Shown: positions 8,059 to 58,651 of the stretch, one piece after another
How positions within the stretch are numbered: the first letter of the stretch is position 1
How the letters are laid out: each line of letters starts with the position of its first letter
NCBI GenBank assembly: GCA_947458545.1
Contig: CANGYH010000001.1
Location: 1,550,001 to 1,614,000 of the forward strand
DNA: 64,000 nt
DNA from: Cytophagaceae bacterium
Lineage (GTDB): Bacteria; Bacteroidota; Bacteroidia; Cytophagales; Flexibacteraceae
Reading direction: 5' to 3'
Program-made: the position numbers and the translations under genes
The notes under the pieces: model-generated
The model's database searches: none
Seen by the model: only the letters and a program-made list of their open reading frames with translations
Told to the model about the DNA's origin: nothing

Positions 8059-8766
8059 TTGTAGCGCGGGCTGTAGCCCGCGAAGCCCTCGTGTTCACCC
8101 CAGGCTAAAGCCAGGGGCTACTGCTAAGGCGACGGCTAAAGCCGAACGCTCTGAGCCTTCGGCAGCAAGAAAGTTGCTGTTCGAGGGCTCCAGCCCTCGC
8201 AACCCTCACGGGCAGGGCTCCAGCCCTGCATACCCCCCCTACTGCCAACACGGCGCAACGGCACAAACAAGGCCCAGGCACAGCTCTTGGCATACCTTAC
8301 CCAACGTCAACATCTGTTATCTCTTACCTTTTCACTTTTATCTCCCGCCCGCAACCTGTCGCAAGTCTTTAGTGACCCGATCAGGGGAGCGATGACTTGT
8401 GACGCCCACAGCAGCACAGTCTTCAGACTGAAACATTACACGACAAACCCACCGACAAGGCCCCGACAAAATTCGCTTGTAAATCCTTATGCATCTGGCA
8501 ATTAAAAGCGTTCGGCTTTAGCCGTCGCCTTAGCAGTAGCCCCTGGCTTTAGCCTGGGGTGAACACGGCGAAACCTGCCTAGCGTAACCGCTCTCACCCC
8601 GCACCCCCACACCCTCCGCAGGCTGCCAGGTCTGGCGCTCTGGCCTACACGCGAGGCACAGCCTCGCCAGAGCACGTGACAATGGCAAAGCCATTGCACA
8701 GTAGAAGGGGGGCAAAGCCATTGCACAGTATTAACTGGGCCTCGCGGGCTACAGCCCGCGCTACAA
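8059..8766. repeat. Composite repeat element with nested inverted repeats, no coding sequence
   Basis: This ~708-bp non-coding block begins 4 nt after a stop codon. The outer arms, 8059-8082 and 8743-8766, are 24 nt and identical inverted copies containing the palindrome GCGGGCTGTAGCCCGC. The inner arms, 8091-8150 and 8507-8566, are a 60-nt perfect inverted repeat containing GGCTAAAGCC-type palindromes. Between the inner arms are further palindromes (GAGGGCTCCAGCCCTC near 8179, GCAGGGCTCCAGCCCTGC near 8200) and a CGACAAA-rich stretch (8440-8480). Between the right inner and outer arms lies a GCGAGGCACAGCCTCGC palindrome (8651-8667) followed by two direct copies of GCAAAGCCATTGCACAGTA. No open frame between the arms looks real. 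It may be a non-autonomous mobile element or a REP cluster. Confidence 0.8.
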
Positions 8767-41442: not shown

Positions 41443-41500
41443 CTGGTCCCGGTCTCCAGACCGGGACCTAGACAGCCGATACCCTGCGGTCTCCAGACCA
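41443..41500. repeat. Stand-alone REP doublet related to the RAYT flanks
   Basis: CTGGTCCCGGTCTCCAGACCGGGACC (palindrome 1, 41443-41468), 16 nt, then GCGGTCTCCAGACCA (palindrome 2, partial, ~41486-41500). The order and spacing resemble the inverted flanks of the transposase at 43449-43529, but no transposase is inside. Confidence 0.75.
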
Positions 41501-41507
41501 TTGATAC

Positions 41508-42230
41508 GGAGGGCGTGGGGTGCGGATATGGGCTGCGTAACGCCCCACCCTGTAGGGGCAGACCCGCGTGTCCGCCCGCCTGCGGATGGCTTATGGATGG
41601 GAGGGTTATTAGGTCGTCTGGGCTAGGCTGGCCGCCCCAGGCTGAAGCCGTGGGGCTACTAGTATAGCGACGGCTGAAGCCGCCCGCTTCTTGTTTGCTG
41701 TTTGTGAGGATGTTACAAGCGTTTTTTGTCGGAAGATGTCGGTGGATTTGTCGGCGGGCTTGCAGTTGTAGTGCGGGCTGCTAGCCCGCCTTGCGGAAGA
41801 TGCCCGTAGGCGGGAGGCTTGGCTTGGTTGTCGGATTTTTGGTTTGGGGGTGTTTGCGTTGATTATCAAAGGCTTGCGAGCGGTTTTTGTCGGGGAATGC
41901 CGGCGGATTTGTCGGGTGATTGTCGAGGGGACGAAGGCCAGGCGCAGCCTGGCGGTTAGGGGTTTGAGGGCGTTGCCCTCAAACAGCGGGCTGGTGGGCT
42001 TGCTGCAATGGGGGAAGGTAAGGATAGGGTTTGCGGCCTTGCCCTTTTTGTGCCATGGGCCGGTGGTTCGCCTTCGGCGCGGAAGCGGGACGCTTCCGGC
42101 CCTGCCACTCACCAGCCAGGAGGCTGGCGAGAGCGTGGTGCCGAAGGCTCAAAGCGTTCGGCTTTAGCCGTCGCCAAAAGAGCAGACACTTAGCAGTAGC
42201 CCCAGACTTTTAGTCTGGGGTAAACACAGC
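41508..42230. repeat. Dense cluster of palindromic repeat modules
   Basis: In order: D (41508-41591, GTAGGGGCAGACCCGCGTGT inside, ~85% like 12927-13011); B (41634-41688, GGCTGAAGCC palindromes); F (41712-41757, TTACAAGCGTTTTTTGTCGG then TGTCGGTGGATTTGTCGG), a second F at 41874-41925; A (41766-41800, GTAGTGCGGGCTGCTAGCCC); C (41968-41989, TTTGAGGGCGTTGCCCTCAAA); and a reverse B copy with an internal insertion (42149-42225). F is the reverse complement of 8440-8492. Open frames here follow the repeats and are not credible genes. Confidence 0.75.
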
Positions 42231-42923: not shown

Positions 42924-43430
42924 TTGATAAAGCTATTTCTCTCTGACGTGGACGGCGTGATGACCGACGCCGGCATGTATTACTCCGAAAAGGGCGACGA
43001 GCTCAAGCGCTATTGCACCTACGACGGCATGGGCTTTCGGATGCTGCAAGAGGCCGGTATCCTGACGGGCATCATCACCACCGAGAAAGTGGAGATGAAC
43101 ATCCGCCGGGCCCGCAAGCTGAAGCTGGAAATCGTCTCCATCGGCGTGGAAGACAAGGTGGCCGAAGCCCGGCGCATCTGGGCCGAGACGGGCATCTTGC
43201 CCGAAGAGACGGCCTACATCGGCGACGACATCAACTGCCTGCCGCTGCTGCGTATCGTCGGCTGGGCCGCCTGCCCGCCCAACAGCCGCAAGCCCATCAA
43301 AGAGGTGCCCGGTATCACGCTGCTGCAAACCCCCGGCGGCCACGGCGCCGTCCGCGAGTTTGCCGAGTTGGTGCTGGACACCATCCCGGGCTACGAACCG
43401 AAGATGCCTTGGAAGAATTTTGGGAATTAG
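42924..43430 (+). CDS. KdsC-like HAD phosphatase (3-deoxy-D-manno-octulosonate 8-phosphate phosphatase family)
   Basis: 168 aa, typical small C0-type HAD. Motif I is LFLSDVDGVMTDAG (Asp8 nucleophile, Asp10), the cap is absent, and later motifs are ITTEKVEMNIRRARKL (motif II region; a Thr follows in the family), IGVEDKVAEARRIW and YIGDDINCLPLLRIVGWAAC (motif IV acids). KdsC releases phosphate from KDO-8-P for LPS; relatives act on other sugar-acid phosphates, so the name is tentative. No ATG fits: the frame begins TTG ATA AAG, and translation probably starts at that TTG (42924). The 5' side carries a remnant of repeat module A (42894-42911). The RAYT element lies 19 nt downstream. Confidence 0.8.
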   Translation: MIKLFLSDVDGVMTDAGMYYSEKGDELKRYCTYDGMGFRMLQEAGILTGIITTEKVEMNIRRARKLKLEIVSIGVEDKVAEARRIWAETGILPEETAYIGDDINCLPLLRIVGWAACPPNSRKPIKEVPGITLLQTPGGHGAVREFAELVLDTIPGYEPKMPWKNFGN

Positions 43431-43448
43431 GGGGACCTGGCCGCGCAC

Positions 43449-43529
43449 CTGGTCCCGGTAGCTCACCCCTGGTCCCGGTCTCTGACCGGGACCCACCCAG
43501 CTGAAACGCGCAGGTCTCCAGACCTGCTT
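43449..43529. repeat. Left inverted repeat (REP doublet) of the RAYT element
   Basis: Palindromes GGTCCCGGTCTCTGACCGGGACC (in two pieces, 43471-43493) and GCAGGTCTCCAGACCTGC (43510-43527), 16 nt apart. Positions 43469-43529 match the reverse complement of 44110-44170 at 59 of 61 bases; similarity extends out to 43449 with one indel. The last base lies in the transposase stop codon. Confidence 0.9.
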
Positions 43530-44080
43530 TACAGAATAACGATGGGTAATAATCCTGGCCTATCAACCATATAATCAATTGCAGAGGAATACCGATAATC
43601 CCACGCCTGTCTGACAAATCCAGCCCTTACAGGATTGTCGTGCAAGTAGTTAAGGCGCTGCTCGGCTATATCTCTATTTTTCAGTTCGACCGGATGAAAA
43701 CCTGGTTGCCAAATCTGAAAGGCACTGTTTTCCGCATTGCCCATTCCGCGCGCCTGAAAAGTCCTTAACATCCAGTCTCGTCGGCTTTCCGAATATTTAT
43801 TATTTAATAACTCTTCATATATATTTTTTGCTGTAAACTTCTTAAGGTCTCTTAAAATATCGTTTAAGGGAGTTTTATCAGAAGACACAATCAGGTGGAT
43901 ATGATTGGTCATCAATACCCAGGCATATATCTGAAGCCCTTTGTTTGATTGACAATACCGTAAACTATCAAGTACGATATCTGCAAATACAGGCCTTGTG
44001 AATATGTCAATCCAGTCAGTGATGGTACACGTCTCGAAGTGGACTGCCCATGGATTAGAAATACGATAGGCCTGAGGCAT
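43529..44080 (-). CDS. REP-associated tyrosine transposase (RAYT, IS200-like Y1 family)
   Basis: 183 aa from ATG 44080 (MPQAYRISNPWAVHFETCTI). Family features: HUH motif in VLMTNHIHLIVS (His60, His62), LNDILRDLKKFTAKNIYEEL, FQARGMGNAENSAFQIWQPG, HPVELKNRDIAEQRLNYLHD and NPVRAGFVRQAWDYRYSSAIDY, the conserved Bacteroidota RAYT C-terminus. The nucleophilic Tyr cannot be assigned with certainty (Tyr88 is a candidate). These transposases nick and mobilise REP palindromes. AT-rich relative to its neighbours. It is bounded by about 80-nt inverted repeats (43449-43529, 44110-44189), making a complete REPtron. Confidence 0.93.
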   Translation of the reverse strand: MPQAYRISNPWAVHFETCTITDWIDIFTRPVFADIVLDSLRYCQSNKGLQIYAWVLMTNHIHLIVSSDKTPLNDILRDLKKFTAKNIYEELLNNKYSESRRDWMLRTFQARGMGNAENSAFQIWQPGFHPVELKNRDIAEQRLNYLHDNPVRAGFVRQAWDYRYSSAIDYMVDRPGLLPIVIL

Positions 44081-44109
44081 AGCTATATATAAATTGGGAT
44101 GTTGGCAAA

Positions 44110-44189
44110 AAGCAGGTCTGGAGACCTGCAAGTTTCAGCTGGGTGGGTCCCGGTCAGAGACCGGGACCAGAGGGTGCGACCGGGACCAG
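44110..44189. repeat. Right inverted repeat (REP doublet) of the RAYT element
   Basis: Inverse of 43449-43529: GCAGGTCTGGAGACCTGC (44112-44129), 16-nt spacer, then GGTCCCGGTCAGAGACCGGGACC (44146-44168), and an outer GACCGGGACCAG end at 44189. Confidence 0.9.
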
Positions 44190-44212
44190 CATCCTTATCC
44201 CGTAGGGTGAAA

Positions 44213-46225
44213 TCAATCCACCTGCTCCAGCACGAGGGCGGTGCGGTTGGCGTTGTAGATGCGGATGCGGCGCTCGCCGTCGGTGAAGTGCTCGGTGCTG
44301 GGGAGGGCGCGGCCTAGGCCGTCGAACTCGGGCGCGTCTGAGCTTAGGATGCAGCGGTATTTGCCGGGCTCGGGTACGCAGAGCTCGTAGTCTGCCAGGC
44401 TTTGCGTGGGCGAAAAGTTGAAGCAAAACACCAGCCCGGCCCGCTCAAAGGCTATGGACTGCGCCCGGGCATCTACGTGCAGCAGGCGGGGGGCATCGGC
44501 GCCCAGTACGCCGTGGCGGTGCATCAGGCCCATCATGGCCTTGTCGAAGGCGAGCAGGCCTTGGTAGCGCAAAAAGGGCGAGTCGGCCAGGCTCCACTGC
44601 CGGCGGGCGTAGCGGTAGCTCCAGTCGTTGCCCGCGCGGGGGAAATCGATCCACTCCGGATGGCCAAACTCGTTACCCATAAATGTGAGCCACCCCTCGC
44701 CCCCGACGCTGATGGTGATGAGGCGGATGAGCTTGTGCAGCGCCACGGCGCGGTCTGCCACCAGGCTGGGCACGCCCCGGCCCATATCCGTGTAGATGTT
44801 GGGGCCCATGAGGCGGAAGAGCACCGTCTGGTCTCCGACCAAGGCTTGGTCGTGGCTTTCCACATAGGCCACGGTGGCCTCGCCCTTGCGGCGGTTGAGC
44901 AGTTGCCAATAGAGGGCCTCGATGTCCCAGCCTTCGTCTTGGCGCTCTTTGATGAGCTTGATCCAATAGTCCGGTATGCCCATGCCGAGGCGGAAGTCGA
45001 ACCCGATGCCGCCCTCGGCCACGGGTTGTGCCAGGCCGGGCATGCCGCTCATATCCTCGGCCACGCAGATGGCGTGGGGGGCCGCATCGTGGGCTACCTC
45101 GGTGGCCAGCGTCAGGTAGAGGACGGCATCCGGGTCGGTGGCATCGGTGAAGTAGTCGGCGTAGCCCAGGAAATCTTTGCCCAGCCCGTGGTGGTGGTAG
45201 AGCATAGACGTGACCCCATCGAAGCGGAAGCCGTCGAAGCGGAACTCCTCCAGCCAATAGCGCACGTTGCTGAGCAAAAACTGCAGCACCTCGGCCCGGC
45301 CGTAGTTGTAGAGCTTACTGTCCCAGAGCTCGTGCTCGCCACGGGGGCCGGTGTGGAAGTACAGGTCTGAGCCGTCAAAGCCATCCAGGCCCTCCAGCCG
45401 GTTTTTAACGGCATGGCTGTGGACGATGTCCATGATGACGGCGATGCCGCGCCCGTGGGCTTCGTCTATCAGATACCTCAGATCATCGGGCGTGCCGAAG
45501 CGGCTGCTGGGTGCAAACAGCGAGCTGACGTGGTAGCCGTAGCTGCCGTAGTACGGATGCTCTTGCACGGCCATCAGTTGGATGGTGTCGTAGCCTAGCT
45601 CGGCGATGCGGGGCAGGATGTGGTCGGCAAATTCGCGCCAGGTGCCCACGCGCTCCTCTTCCGTAGCCATGCCTACATGGGCCTCGTAGATGCAGGGGTT
45701 GGGCCTGCGCTCGGCAAAGGCATGGCGCCAGCGGTAGGGCCGGGCCGGGTGCCAAATCTGGGGGGTAAAGTGTTTGGTGTCCGGGTTTTGCACCACGTAG
45801 CCTGCATAGGCGGGGATGCGGTCTTCGGTGCCGTGGGCGTGGGTTACGGTCACCTTGTAGCCCTGGCCGTGTTGCAGACCGTTGGGGCCGTCGGGCACAA
45901 AAATCTCCCAGACGCGGTCGGGCCGCTGGGTAAGCGGGTGGCTGCTGCGGCTCCAGTTATTGAAGTCGCCCGTCAGGTGCAAGGCGGCGGCGTTGGGAGC
46001 CCATTCGCGGTACCACCAGCCGCCTTGGGCATCGTCTCGCACCAGGCCCAGCACCTGGTGCATGCTGCTGAAGGCCCGCAGGCTACCGGCCTCCTCTTCG
46101 ATGAGGGCCCGCATACCCCGGTAGCGGTAGGTCCGCTCGGCTAGGGCCTCGGCAAAGGGGGCTAGCCAGGGGTCTTGCTGCACCATGGGCAGTTGGCGGA
46201 AGGAGTAGAGCGAAGCAGCAGCCAT
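44213..46225 (-). CDS. glgB: 1,4-alpha-glucan branching enzyme, eukaryotic-like GH13_8 type
   Basis: 670 aa from ATG 46225 (MAAASLYSFRQL); 23 further in-frame residues upstream look unnatural. CBM48-type N-terminal domain (~55-150, WWYREWAPNAAALHLTGDFN) followed by a TIM barrel. Catalytic residues sit in FRFDGVTSMLYHHHG (nucleophile Asp336), ICVAEDMSGMPG (acid/base Glu390) and YVESHDQALVGDQT (Asp459). A C-terminal beta domain ends YNANRTALVLEQVD. The motifs (VTSMLYHHHG, NEFGHPEWIDFPRAGNDWS) are those of GBE1-like enzymes, found in some Bacteroidota instead of the common bacterial GlgB. It makes alpha-1,6 branches in glycogen in the cytosol. Confidence 0.95.
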   Translation of the reverse strand: MAAASLYSFRQLPMVQQDPWLAPFAEALAERTYRYRGMRALIEEEAGSLRAFSSMHQVLGLVRDDAQGGWWYREWAPNAAALHLTGDFNNWSRSSHPLTQRPDRVWEIFVPDGPNGLQHGQGYKVTVTHAHGTEDRIPAYAGYVVQNPDTKHFTPQIWHPARPYRWRHAFAERRPNPCIYEAHVGMATEEERVGTWREFADHILPRIAELGYDTIQLMAVQEHPYYGSYGYHVSSLFAPSSRFGTPDDLRYLIDEAHGRGIAVIMDIVHSHAVKNRLEGLDGFDGSDLYFHTGPRGEHELWDSKLYNYGRAEVLQFLLSNVRYWLEEFRFDGFRFDGVTSMLYHHHGLGKDFLGYADYFTDATDPDAVLYLTLATEVAHDAAPHAICVAEDMSGMPGLAQPVAEGGIGFDFRLGMGIPDYWIKLIKERQDEGWDIEALYWQLLNRRKGEATVAYVESHDQALVGDQTVLFRLMGPNIYTDMGRGVPSLVADRAVALHKLIRLITISVGGEGWLTFMGNEFGHPEWIDFPRAGNDWSYRYARRQWSLADSPFLRYQGLLAFDKAMMGLMHRHGVLGADAPRLLHVDARAQSIAFERAGLVFCFNFSPTQSLADYELCVPEPGKYRCILSSDAPEFDGLGRALPSTEHFTDGERRIRIYNANRTALVLEQVD

Positions 46226-58439: not shown

Positions 58440-58651
58440 TATAGGGCCCCCAGGCTAAAGCCGTGGGGTGAACAGGCGGGCGTCGCGGGCCATAGACCGC
58501 GCTACAATCGGCACCCCATGCCATCCGCAAACAGCCAAGTCTGCCGCCCTGGCCTACACGCGAGGCGCAGCCTCGCCATAGCACGTGACAATGTGCAAAG
58601 CTATTGCACAGTAGATAGGACAGTATACGATGCAGAGCCCTTGCACAGTCT
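58440..58651. repeat. Cluster of palindromic repeat modules (B, A and E)
   Basis: B fragment (58448-58473, CCCCAGGCTAAAGCCGTGGGGTG), A (58481-58508, GCGGGCCATAGACCGC), E (58549-58628: TGGCCTACACGCGAGGCGCA then CACGTGACAATGTGCAAAGC, matching 8640-8730). In the first composite element (8059-8766) the same modules B, E and A occur. Confidence 0.7.

Follow-up and report, generated by a model that had tools for sequence, protein, structure and literature searches.

A gene for a RAYT-like transposase lies in the window (the whole 64,000-nt stretch of Cytophagaceae bacterium DNA that was analysed) between inverted copies of a sequence with two different palindromes, which raises the question of what such a transposase recognises. 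The gene encodes an HUH-Y1 protein of the TnpA-REP type (Table 1), and its longest open reading frame extends to 44131. The protein matched NCBIfam NF047646 (REP_Tyr_transpos) at 102.3 bits, against a cut-off of 80, and Pfam Y1_Tnp at 31.1 bits, against a cut-off of 23, and thus belongs to the RAYT family by a curated model; at E 0.001, Y1_Tnp was the sole Pfam match on its 183 residues. In an alignment of the RAYTs of this clade from the same genome, the HxH and Tyr columns were invariant across the six paralogues. The clade profile matched PDB 4er8, the solved E. coli RAYT (E 1.8e-8), and a fold match was obtained to the IS200/IS605 structure 2xo6 (E 1e-5). A structure model with a mean pLDDT of 69, and below 50 for the last 33 residues, served solely to confirm the HUH fold; in it, a helix is predicted at residues 73-94, followed by one at 99-113. 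The motifs of the window protein are NHIH, WQ and YLHDNP, and the exact YIHQNP was present in two of the six paralogues, L034 and L036, whose HUH motifs are SHIH and SHLH, respectively. Judged by published motifs and phylum rather than by a subclass profile, the window RAYT resembles TnpAY1 subclass 2.6, or RAYT group 5. The group numbering is reportedly that of Bertels 2017. The neighbouring genes are KdsC-like (HAD phosphatase) and GlgB-like, both scoring under the curated cut-offs.

Table 1. Features of the RAYT locus and a dispersed unit of its family, in window positions
Feature	Position	Strand	Remark
Dispersed unit of the window family (U33), ~2 kb from the RAYT	41443..41499	+	81% identity to the RAYT flank unit
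Half copy of P1 immediately outside the left unit	43449..43462	+	Repeat search
CT dinucleotide at the foot of left P1, putative cleavage site	43469..43470	+	CT here in 24/41 canonical units
Left outer palindrome P1, 10 bp stem, 3-nt loop	43471..43493	+	Repeat, pattern, folding
Left P1-P2 spacer, 16 nt	43494..43509	+	
Left inner palindrome P2, 7 bp stem, 4-nt loop	43510..43527	+	Pattern, folding
RAYT (TnpA-REP-like HUH-Y1 transposase) gene	43529..44080	-	183 aa from ATG at 44080
Right inner palindrome P2, inverted copy, 31 nt ahead of the ATG	44112..44129	-	
Right outer palindrome P1, inverted copy	44146..44168	-	
CT at the foot of right P1 (AG on the + strand)	44169..44170	-	
Half copy of P1 immediately outside the right unit	44176..44189	-	Repeat search

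The sequence-only reading of this locus had described the two flanks as inverted copies agreeing at 59 of their inner 61 nt; our recount of 43469-43529 against the reverse complement of 44110-44170 gave the same 59 of 61, and a repeat search delimited inverted arms of 65 nt (43466-43530 and 44109-44173) that are 95% complementary. The two different palindromes that it had placed in fixed order in each flank were recovered by pattern and by folding, and are denoted as P1 (outer) and P2 (inner). The left flank reaches the transposase stop as had been stated, with P2 ending at 43527, one base off the stop codon (43529-43531), and the outer ends of the flanks as they had been drawn are extra half copies of P1. 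With up to three mismatches, the P1 pattern had two matches in the window and none in 100 shuffles. For the P2 pattern, three matches were listed, of which the two mismatch-free ones are the flank P2s; the chance mean was 0.5, and three of 100 shuffles reached three matches. Folded as a single strand, the left flank formed exactly two separate hairpins, P1 and P2, with z scores of -5.9 and -4.8 for the two strands. Three features go beyond the earlier description: P1 and P2 have a common stem tip (the inner four base pairs, GGTC/GACC, in the left flank), they have the same orientation, and the window holds further copies of the unit.

The host genome (3.23 Mb in nine contigs) carries seven RAYTs above the cut-off. 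Six of them belong to the clade of the window RAYT, and each has a palindrome pair of its own on both sides in the same layout: CT precedes P1, which is mostly of 9-10 bp; a spacer, across loci usually of 8-9 nt, separates P1 from P2, which is mostly of 6-8 bp; the gene and the inverted unit come next. The P1/P2 tips are GGTC/GGTC at the window locus, GGGC/GGGC at L031, TGGC/AGGC at L032 and AGCT/AGCT at L034; between the sister RAYTs L036 and L037 they change from AGTC/AGTC to AGAC/CGAC. Each unit type in the genome has one intact RAYT. In the region of G000:C1:1642657 (L044), 142 nt match the 3' end of the RAYT gene of L032, together with its unit, at 93% identity, and this truncated second copy indicates that a RAYT gene can be copied along. 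The seventh RAYT (L035, G000:C9:18257-18661) is of another type and lies beside GTAG-footed palindromes like GTAGGACAGGGCGACAGACCTGT; its branch in the tree is very long and its placement unsure.

The unit thus has a fixed anatomy with a shared tip, a single orientation and a CT foot, it is dispersed pairwise, and its families match the RAYTs. We consider it probable that the locus consists of a RAYT of a Bacteroidota clade together with its cognate two-hairpin repeat unit; binding, cleavage, strand transfer and present-day mobility are read from sequence here. Once the unit is single-stranded, the RAYT would read the tip common to both hairpins, usually with T as the first loop base, and its HUH/Tyr centre would cleave at CT, at the foot of P1. 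The RAYT would carry units to other intergenic sites, either singly or in facing pairs made up of a unit, a centre and an inverted unit; its own gene sits within one such facing pair. An enzyme of this kind, reading both tips and cutting at CT, would be consistent with the CT at the P1 foot, the one-strand polarity and the shared tip, and the two-hairpin unit suggests what this little-studied RAYT group recognises. A more tentative version, which we regard as possible though somewhat doubtful, is that the unit is a complete miniature IS200-like element with P1 as its left end and P2 as its right end, a single RAYT dimer reading the five-bp tip in both. The tips of both hairpins would in that case change together as RAYTs diverge and serve as a specificity code, which would allow several RAYT-repeat systems to coexist in one genome without crossing.

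The pair is not limited to the window locus, in agreement with the sequence-only reading. The strict P1 pattern of the window family was found at 26 places in the genome, and P2 follows on the same strand at all 26. At 23 of them the P2 pattern (at most one mismatch) lies 3', at 17-18 nt in 22 cases and at 49 nt in one, where a second P1 intervenes; the other three are the two RAYT flanks, with their own P2 variant, and a site at 1591445 whose P2 has two mismatches. The reverse order, P2 before P1, was seen at none of the 26 strict P1 sites. Among 32 P2 places, nine are without a strict P1, of which seven have a P1 that is degenerate or cut by a contig end and two have none. Considering that about 10 P1-only pieces of at least 24 nt occur in the genome, P1 can stand alone and P2 hardly ever does. 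The dispersed copies of the window family reach at best 91% identity to the RAYT flanks over the unit, and most differ in the P2 stem, so the window RAYT may not have spread them; against the dispersed-type unit sequence, U33 has 91% identity over 57 nt. To judge by its differences from the flanks, the dispersed family closest to the window RAYT may stem from a sister RAYT that has been lost.

A pair of this kind could instead be an ordinary heterodimer in which two REP subfamilies are joined, or one REP that was duplicated in tandem and has since drifted, with no role of its own for P2. REP subfamilies are known from E. coli as well (Y, Z1 and Z2, as given in the main text of PMC6006769), and the P1-only pieces speak for the same explanation. 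We nevertheless regard it as unlikely, since P1 and P2 keep a fixed order and orientation, only two of the 32 P2 sites are without any P1, and the likeness between the hairpins is confined in a way that became apparent across the clade. Named genomes were scanned, and of 499 loci the 80 best were kept, all with Bacteroidota names except two of Balneolaceae (L112 and L144); together with the six own loci and less L108, whose flanks are short, 85 of 86 loci were tested. Of 170 clade flanks, 81 had an adjacent pair of hairpins, 3-20 nt apart, against 13 of 850 dinucleotide-shuffled flanks. By locus, 52 of 85 had a pair on at least one side and 29 on both, and in 33 the strict detector found no pair on either side. 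At L118, L132, L125, L143, L145, L154, L167 and L173, the outer hairpin is a variant whose loop is long, about 10-25 nt as judged by eye, and some of these variants (L118, L132 and L145, for example) are missed by the detector; in L145, the stem still has AAGTTTA in common with the inner hairpin.

The tip, taken as at least three of the inner four nucleotides, was shared in 50 of the 81 clade pairs. Counted by locus, this makes 34 of 52, with a mean of 9.5 and a maximum of 21 in 5000 permutations, and 18 of 52 loci with pairs do not share it. All four tip bases were alike in 18 of 52 loci (permutation mean 3.1, maximum 11). Chance-looking hairpin pairs stayed in these permutation tests, and paralogues and related loci are not independent, so the permutation and binomial values are descriptive. 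Counting stem positions from the loop, identity between P1 and P2 was 0.69, 0.67, 0.77, 0.65 and 0.63 at positions 1 to 5, with none of 2000 permutations reaching it at any of them, and fell to the null level at positions 6 and 7 (0.29 and 0.20). The permutation means for positions 1 to 8 were 0.42, 0.44, 0.44, 0.32, 0.29, 0.30, 0.26 and 0.28. This fall after position 5 argues against plain duplication, with the exception of position 8, which is alike again (0.48 versus 0.28, n=21; 49 of 2000 permutations) and for which we have no explanation. Orientation was judged at 30 loci whose stems are alike and whose loops are equally long: the loops were more alike directly in 23 and inverted in 4, with 3 tied.

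The foot of the pair is likewise unequal between the two hairpins. For this comparison, 41 canonical rows from 31 loci were selected out of the 81 pairs, namely those in which the tip is shared and the outer stem is no shorter than the inner one. CT stands directly before P1 in 24 of these 41 rows, against a background of 5.9%, whereas it stands before P2 in 8 and after P2 in 1, which also disfavours two equivalent REPs. By locus, CT was at the P1 foot in 19 of 31 canonical loci, in 15 of 25 when the window genome was left aside, and over all 81 pairs in 32. T was the first loop base in 36 of 41 P1 and 37 of 41 P2 hairpins of the canonical rows, the gap between P1 and P2 was 8 or 9 nt in 25, and the third or fourth P1 pair from the base was mismatched in 17. 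The sequence-only reading had called the locus a complete REPtron. A RAYT between inverted two-palindrome units is borne out by the NF047646 score and by many dispersed copies, and the RAYT is indeed flanked by palindromes dispersed in the genome, but the canonical GT[AG]G foot is absent, with GTAG or GTGG within eight bases before P1 in 0 of 41 canonical units.

In a flank alignment test, 50 of 85 loci exceeded the 99th percentile of 503 swapped-flank scores; related loci inflate this null, whose maximum of 76 was exceeded by 21 of 85. As controls we used 20 more distant RAYTs of the same order, the longer ones picked from 39 rows with E >1e-32. An adjacent pair was present in 5 of their 40 flanks, with a shared tip in 2 of the 5 (L240 and L247), and the other controls had single hairpins or none. 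A tree was built from 84 of the 86 clade loci (two with more than one stop were dropped), the 20 controls and L035, with 50 rows unlabelled. The 20 controls formed one supported group (100/97) without any labelled shared-tip row, and the 34 clade rows with shared-tip pairs were spread over the rest of the tree, L144 lying on the branch next to the controls.

Copy numbers in the host genome are lower bounds, because 40 of 45 candidate places were scored for the window family and 40 of 78 for the other five families, which occupy at least 68 places at E <1e-8. Four of these five are dispersed as whole units, and the family of L034 occurs at its RAYT and otherwise in just three degenerate matches, so that five unit types are multicopy. 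Conservation among copies begins at most two bases from CT in all five families (n = 12 to 37, RAYT flanks included), with weaker conservation extending further out in U31 and U32, and it drops at the end of P2 in two families (U36 and U37). Among same-family neighbours less than 1 kb apart (96 places, five families), 17 of 23 face each other with P1 outermost, 4 are in tandem and 2 are back-to-back; 4 of the 17 facing pairs are RAYT loci.

Inverted flanks with P1 outermost are alike around RAYTs and around short non-coding centres, which would also be expected of a conventional IS or TIR transposon (a TIRtron in the sense of Di Nocera 2013) whose RAYT and units move as one, the gene-less facing pairs being internally deleted relatives. 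The truncated second copy of the L032 RAYT 3' end with its unit fits this, as do the many matches to the clade profile in some genomes, for example 19 in G045 and 11 in G029, with fragments among them; in G045, some are fragmentary or contain stops, suggesting expansion or decay. We consider the transposon explanation quite improbable, given that each unit type here has one intact RAYT, yet five unit types are multicopy. Moreover, a tblastn search of the six RAYT proteins at E 1e-3 gave no match in the retrieved own-genome loci outside the RAYT loci, although it also missed the short L044 fragment.

With respect to movement of the units by a cognate RAYT, similar facing pairs with a centre of ~28 nt were present in three of four regions of G075, and the three look like copies of one composite. 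A search for empty sites compared four relatives with G071, the Paludibacter jiangxiensis MAG to which L149 belongs, at two of its dispersed regions, with part of the candidates in G076 and G069 scored, and found no precise empty site. One of the regions, L256, turned out to contain the L124 RAYT's own homologue, its best match lying at that RAYT. For the other, L257, a gene aligned on one side, and no unit match was found around the orthologous gene in the four relatives; this is a presence/absence difference with one matched flank and is not counted as proof of mobility.

Several further arrangements of units were observed. Copies of an orphan family whose two hairpins have a common tip (GCCCCAGGCTGAAGCCGTGGGGC ... 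GCGACGGCTGAAGCCG) lie in the window at 41634-41682, 8098-8144 and 8513-8559; the family has the same anatomy and 24 places in the genome (one partial), and a RAYT was found beside none of them. The window also holds one unit of the L031 family and two of the L032 family (8177-8229, 8651-8701 and 58560-58611), and those at 8177-8229 and 8651-8701 form a mosaic with orphan units at 8.1-8.7 kb. In L178-L197, units of different RAYT families recur together at near-fixed spacings, as if a composite had multiplied, and in three places L037-type and L032-type units are 44-48 nt apart. Many dispersed L032-type units (L055, L057, L179 and others) have GTAGGCCAGGGCG...CCTGGC on their 3' side, and some have TTGTAGCGCGGGCTGTAGCCCGCG; by their sequence, these look like GTAG-footed REPs of another RAYT type. 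Truncated P1 halves of ~22-28 nt are stacked just 5' of full units at L008, L014, L015, L016 and L188, in some cases one after another, two together, which gives the impression of repeated copying of the left end.

The recurring clusters of different-family units at near-fixed spacings and the multicopy orphan family without a RAYT could mean that recombination or another enzyme spread the dispersed units, as mosaic repeats of old date, and that the RAYT is incidental or merely maintains them. To our judgement this is very improbable, because five RAYTs in one genome each have a dispersed family and because the RAYT locus and the dispersed unit match across genomes. When 15 units were joined into one query against 17 genomes, 127 of the 150 matches listed were to the genome's own unit. 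Another 16 were to the unit of another genome (9 in G070 to the L138 unit, 4 in G075 to the L136 unit, 2 in G066 to the L176 unit and 1 in G073 to the L148 unit), and 7 were in G065, whose own unit was absent from the query, and matched the L121 unit. G069, whose own unit was also absent, had one match outside the 150 listed. In 8 of 15 genomes the own-unit query gave one to four matches in all, and 31 of 46, 35, 34 and 47 candidates were scored in G066, G073, G074 and G075, respectively, where counts are thus at least those given.

A Bacteroidota-clade RAYT with its cognate unit remains the reading that we prefer, and the paired form was found together with a RAYT in other genomes, as the sequence-only reading had proposed: units of other sequence were paired in all 15 of the other RAYT-carrying genomes that had their own unit in the query. 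Of 59 genomes, the own one included, 28 had a match to the clade profile at E 1e-20 or better, the best match being weaker than 1e-30 in 4 of the 28. Units of the window genome were found in none of 58 related genomes at the threshold used, with or without RAYTs, in a search that scored 11 of 93 candidate places in the own genome and in a set of relatives that includes none of the same genus. The unit families are therefore private, and dependence on the RAYT is not thereby shown. The supposition that the pair accompanies this RAYT clade holds in part: units of the window genome were seen in none of the 58 relatives, and so not without a RAYT either, which cannot prove dependence, but the orphan family in the own genome has no RAYT. 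That the hairpins act as RNA, as a terminator or attenuator of the transposase gene, has a nearly negligible probability: P2 lies 1 nt past the stop codon and 31 nt ahead of the start codon, but the symmetry around the gene is inverted, units are dispersed far from RAYT genes, and no Rfam family reached its gathering score in 43300-44300 (SorX was sub-threshold, at 26.4 of 46.6 bits).

RAYTs flanked by dispersed structures were already known in Bacteroidota, and the part for which we found no earlier description is the layout, a tip-sharing hairpin pair in one orientation with a CT foot. The main text of PMC6006769 left the targets of Bacteroidota RAYTs as "atypical secondary structures", for which the two-hairpin unit is a concrete candidate substrate. 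The unit is short enough for oligonucleotide synthesis and can be used in an existing cleavage assay. Variation of the five-pair tip, with six RAYTs in one genome and dozens across the phylum, would directly expose the specificity of a domesticated transposase.

Among known systems, subclass 2.6 (RAYT group 5) comes close to the window RAYT. According to the main text of Quentin 2018 (PMC6006769), it is found mainly in Bacteroidota, is flanked by "atypical secondary structures" and carries the motifs NH[LIV]H, WQ and YIH[QN]NP (its Table 1), and its conservation does not extend to the region responsible for reading GTAG in E. coli. The window RAYT is alike in its phylum, in NH[LIV]H and WQ, in structures without GT[AG]G and in copies elsewhere in the genome, and the clade, by the names of the best 80 of 499 loci, is likewise mostly from Bacteroidetes. 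The sequence-only reading had taken the Bacteroidota host as a surprise; since RAYTs with flanking structures were described there (PMC6006769) and subclass 2.6 is known mainly from that phylum, the host is instead the expected one. Main-text passages of that paper mention no two-hairpin unit, shared tip, same-strand orientation or CT foot, and its supplementary Table S1 may already list hairpins; with the same reservation, we found no description in the literature of a tip-sharing, same-strand two-hairpin unit as the repeat of this RAYT clade.

The E. coli REPtron shares with the window system an HUH-Y1 enzyme, palindromes around the gene, dispersed copies and inverted pairs, as described in the main text of Corneloup 2021 (PMC8266576), where the enzymes studied are of groups 2 and 3. 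There, single-stranded REP is the substrate of TnpA-REP, which cuts at CT on the 5' or the 3' side of the hairpin, and E. coli REPs have a stem irregularity comparable to the mismatch near the P1 base. In contrast with the single GTAG hairpins that are paired inverted in E. coli, the unit here has two unlike hairpins in the same orientation, with a CT foot and no GTAG; it also differs in this respect from a REPIN or BIME, in which inverted REPs are the basic unit. TIRtrons, as presented in the text of Di Nocera 2013 (PMC3733652), resemble the window locus in having a RAYT-like gene between long inverted repeats, sometimes with two palindromes, and the 65-nt inverted flanks here, with a P1 foot without GT[AG]G, are long TIRs unlike GTAG REPs. 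Some TIRtron TIRs have GGGGWSAS in common (PMC3733652), and 20 of 26 TIRYTs are placed in subclass 2.1, with HTH domains (PMC6006769). In P. putida and P. fluorescens, the double repeats consist of a degenerate GTAG REP and a hairpin unrelated to it rather than of a tip-sharing pair (PMC3733652). Finally, IS200/IS605 elements (IS608 and ISDra2) are like the window system in the fold of the enzyme and in hairpins that, according to PMC8266576, are read on one strand with contact to a loop T, whereas both hairpins lie within ~60 nt here and are repeated inverted on both sides of the gene.
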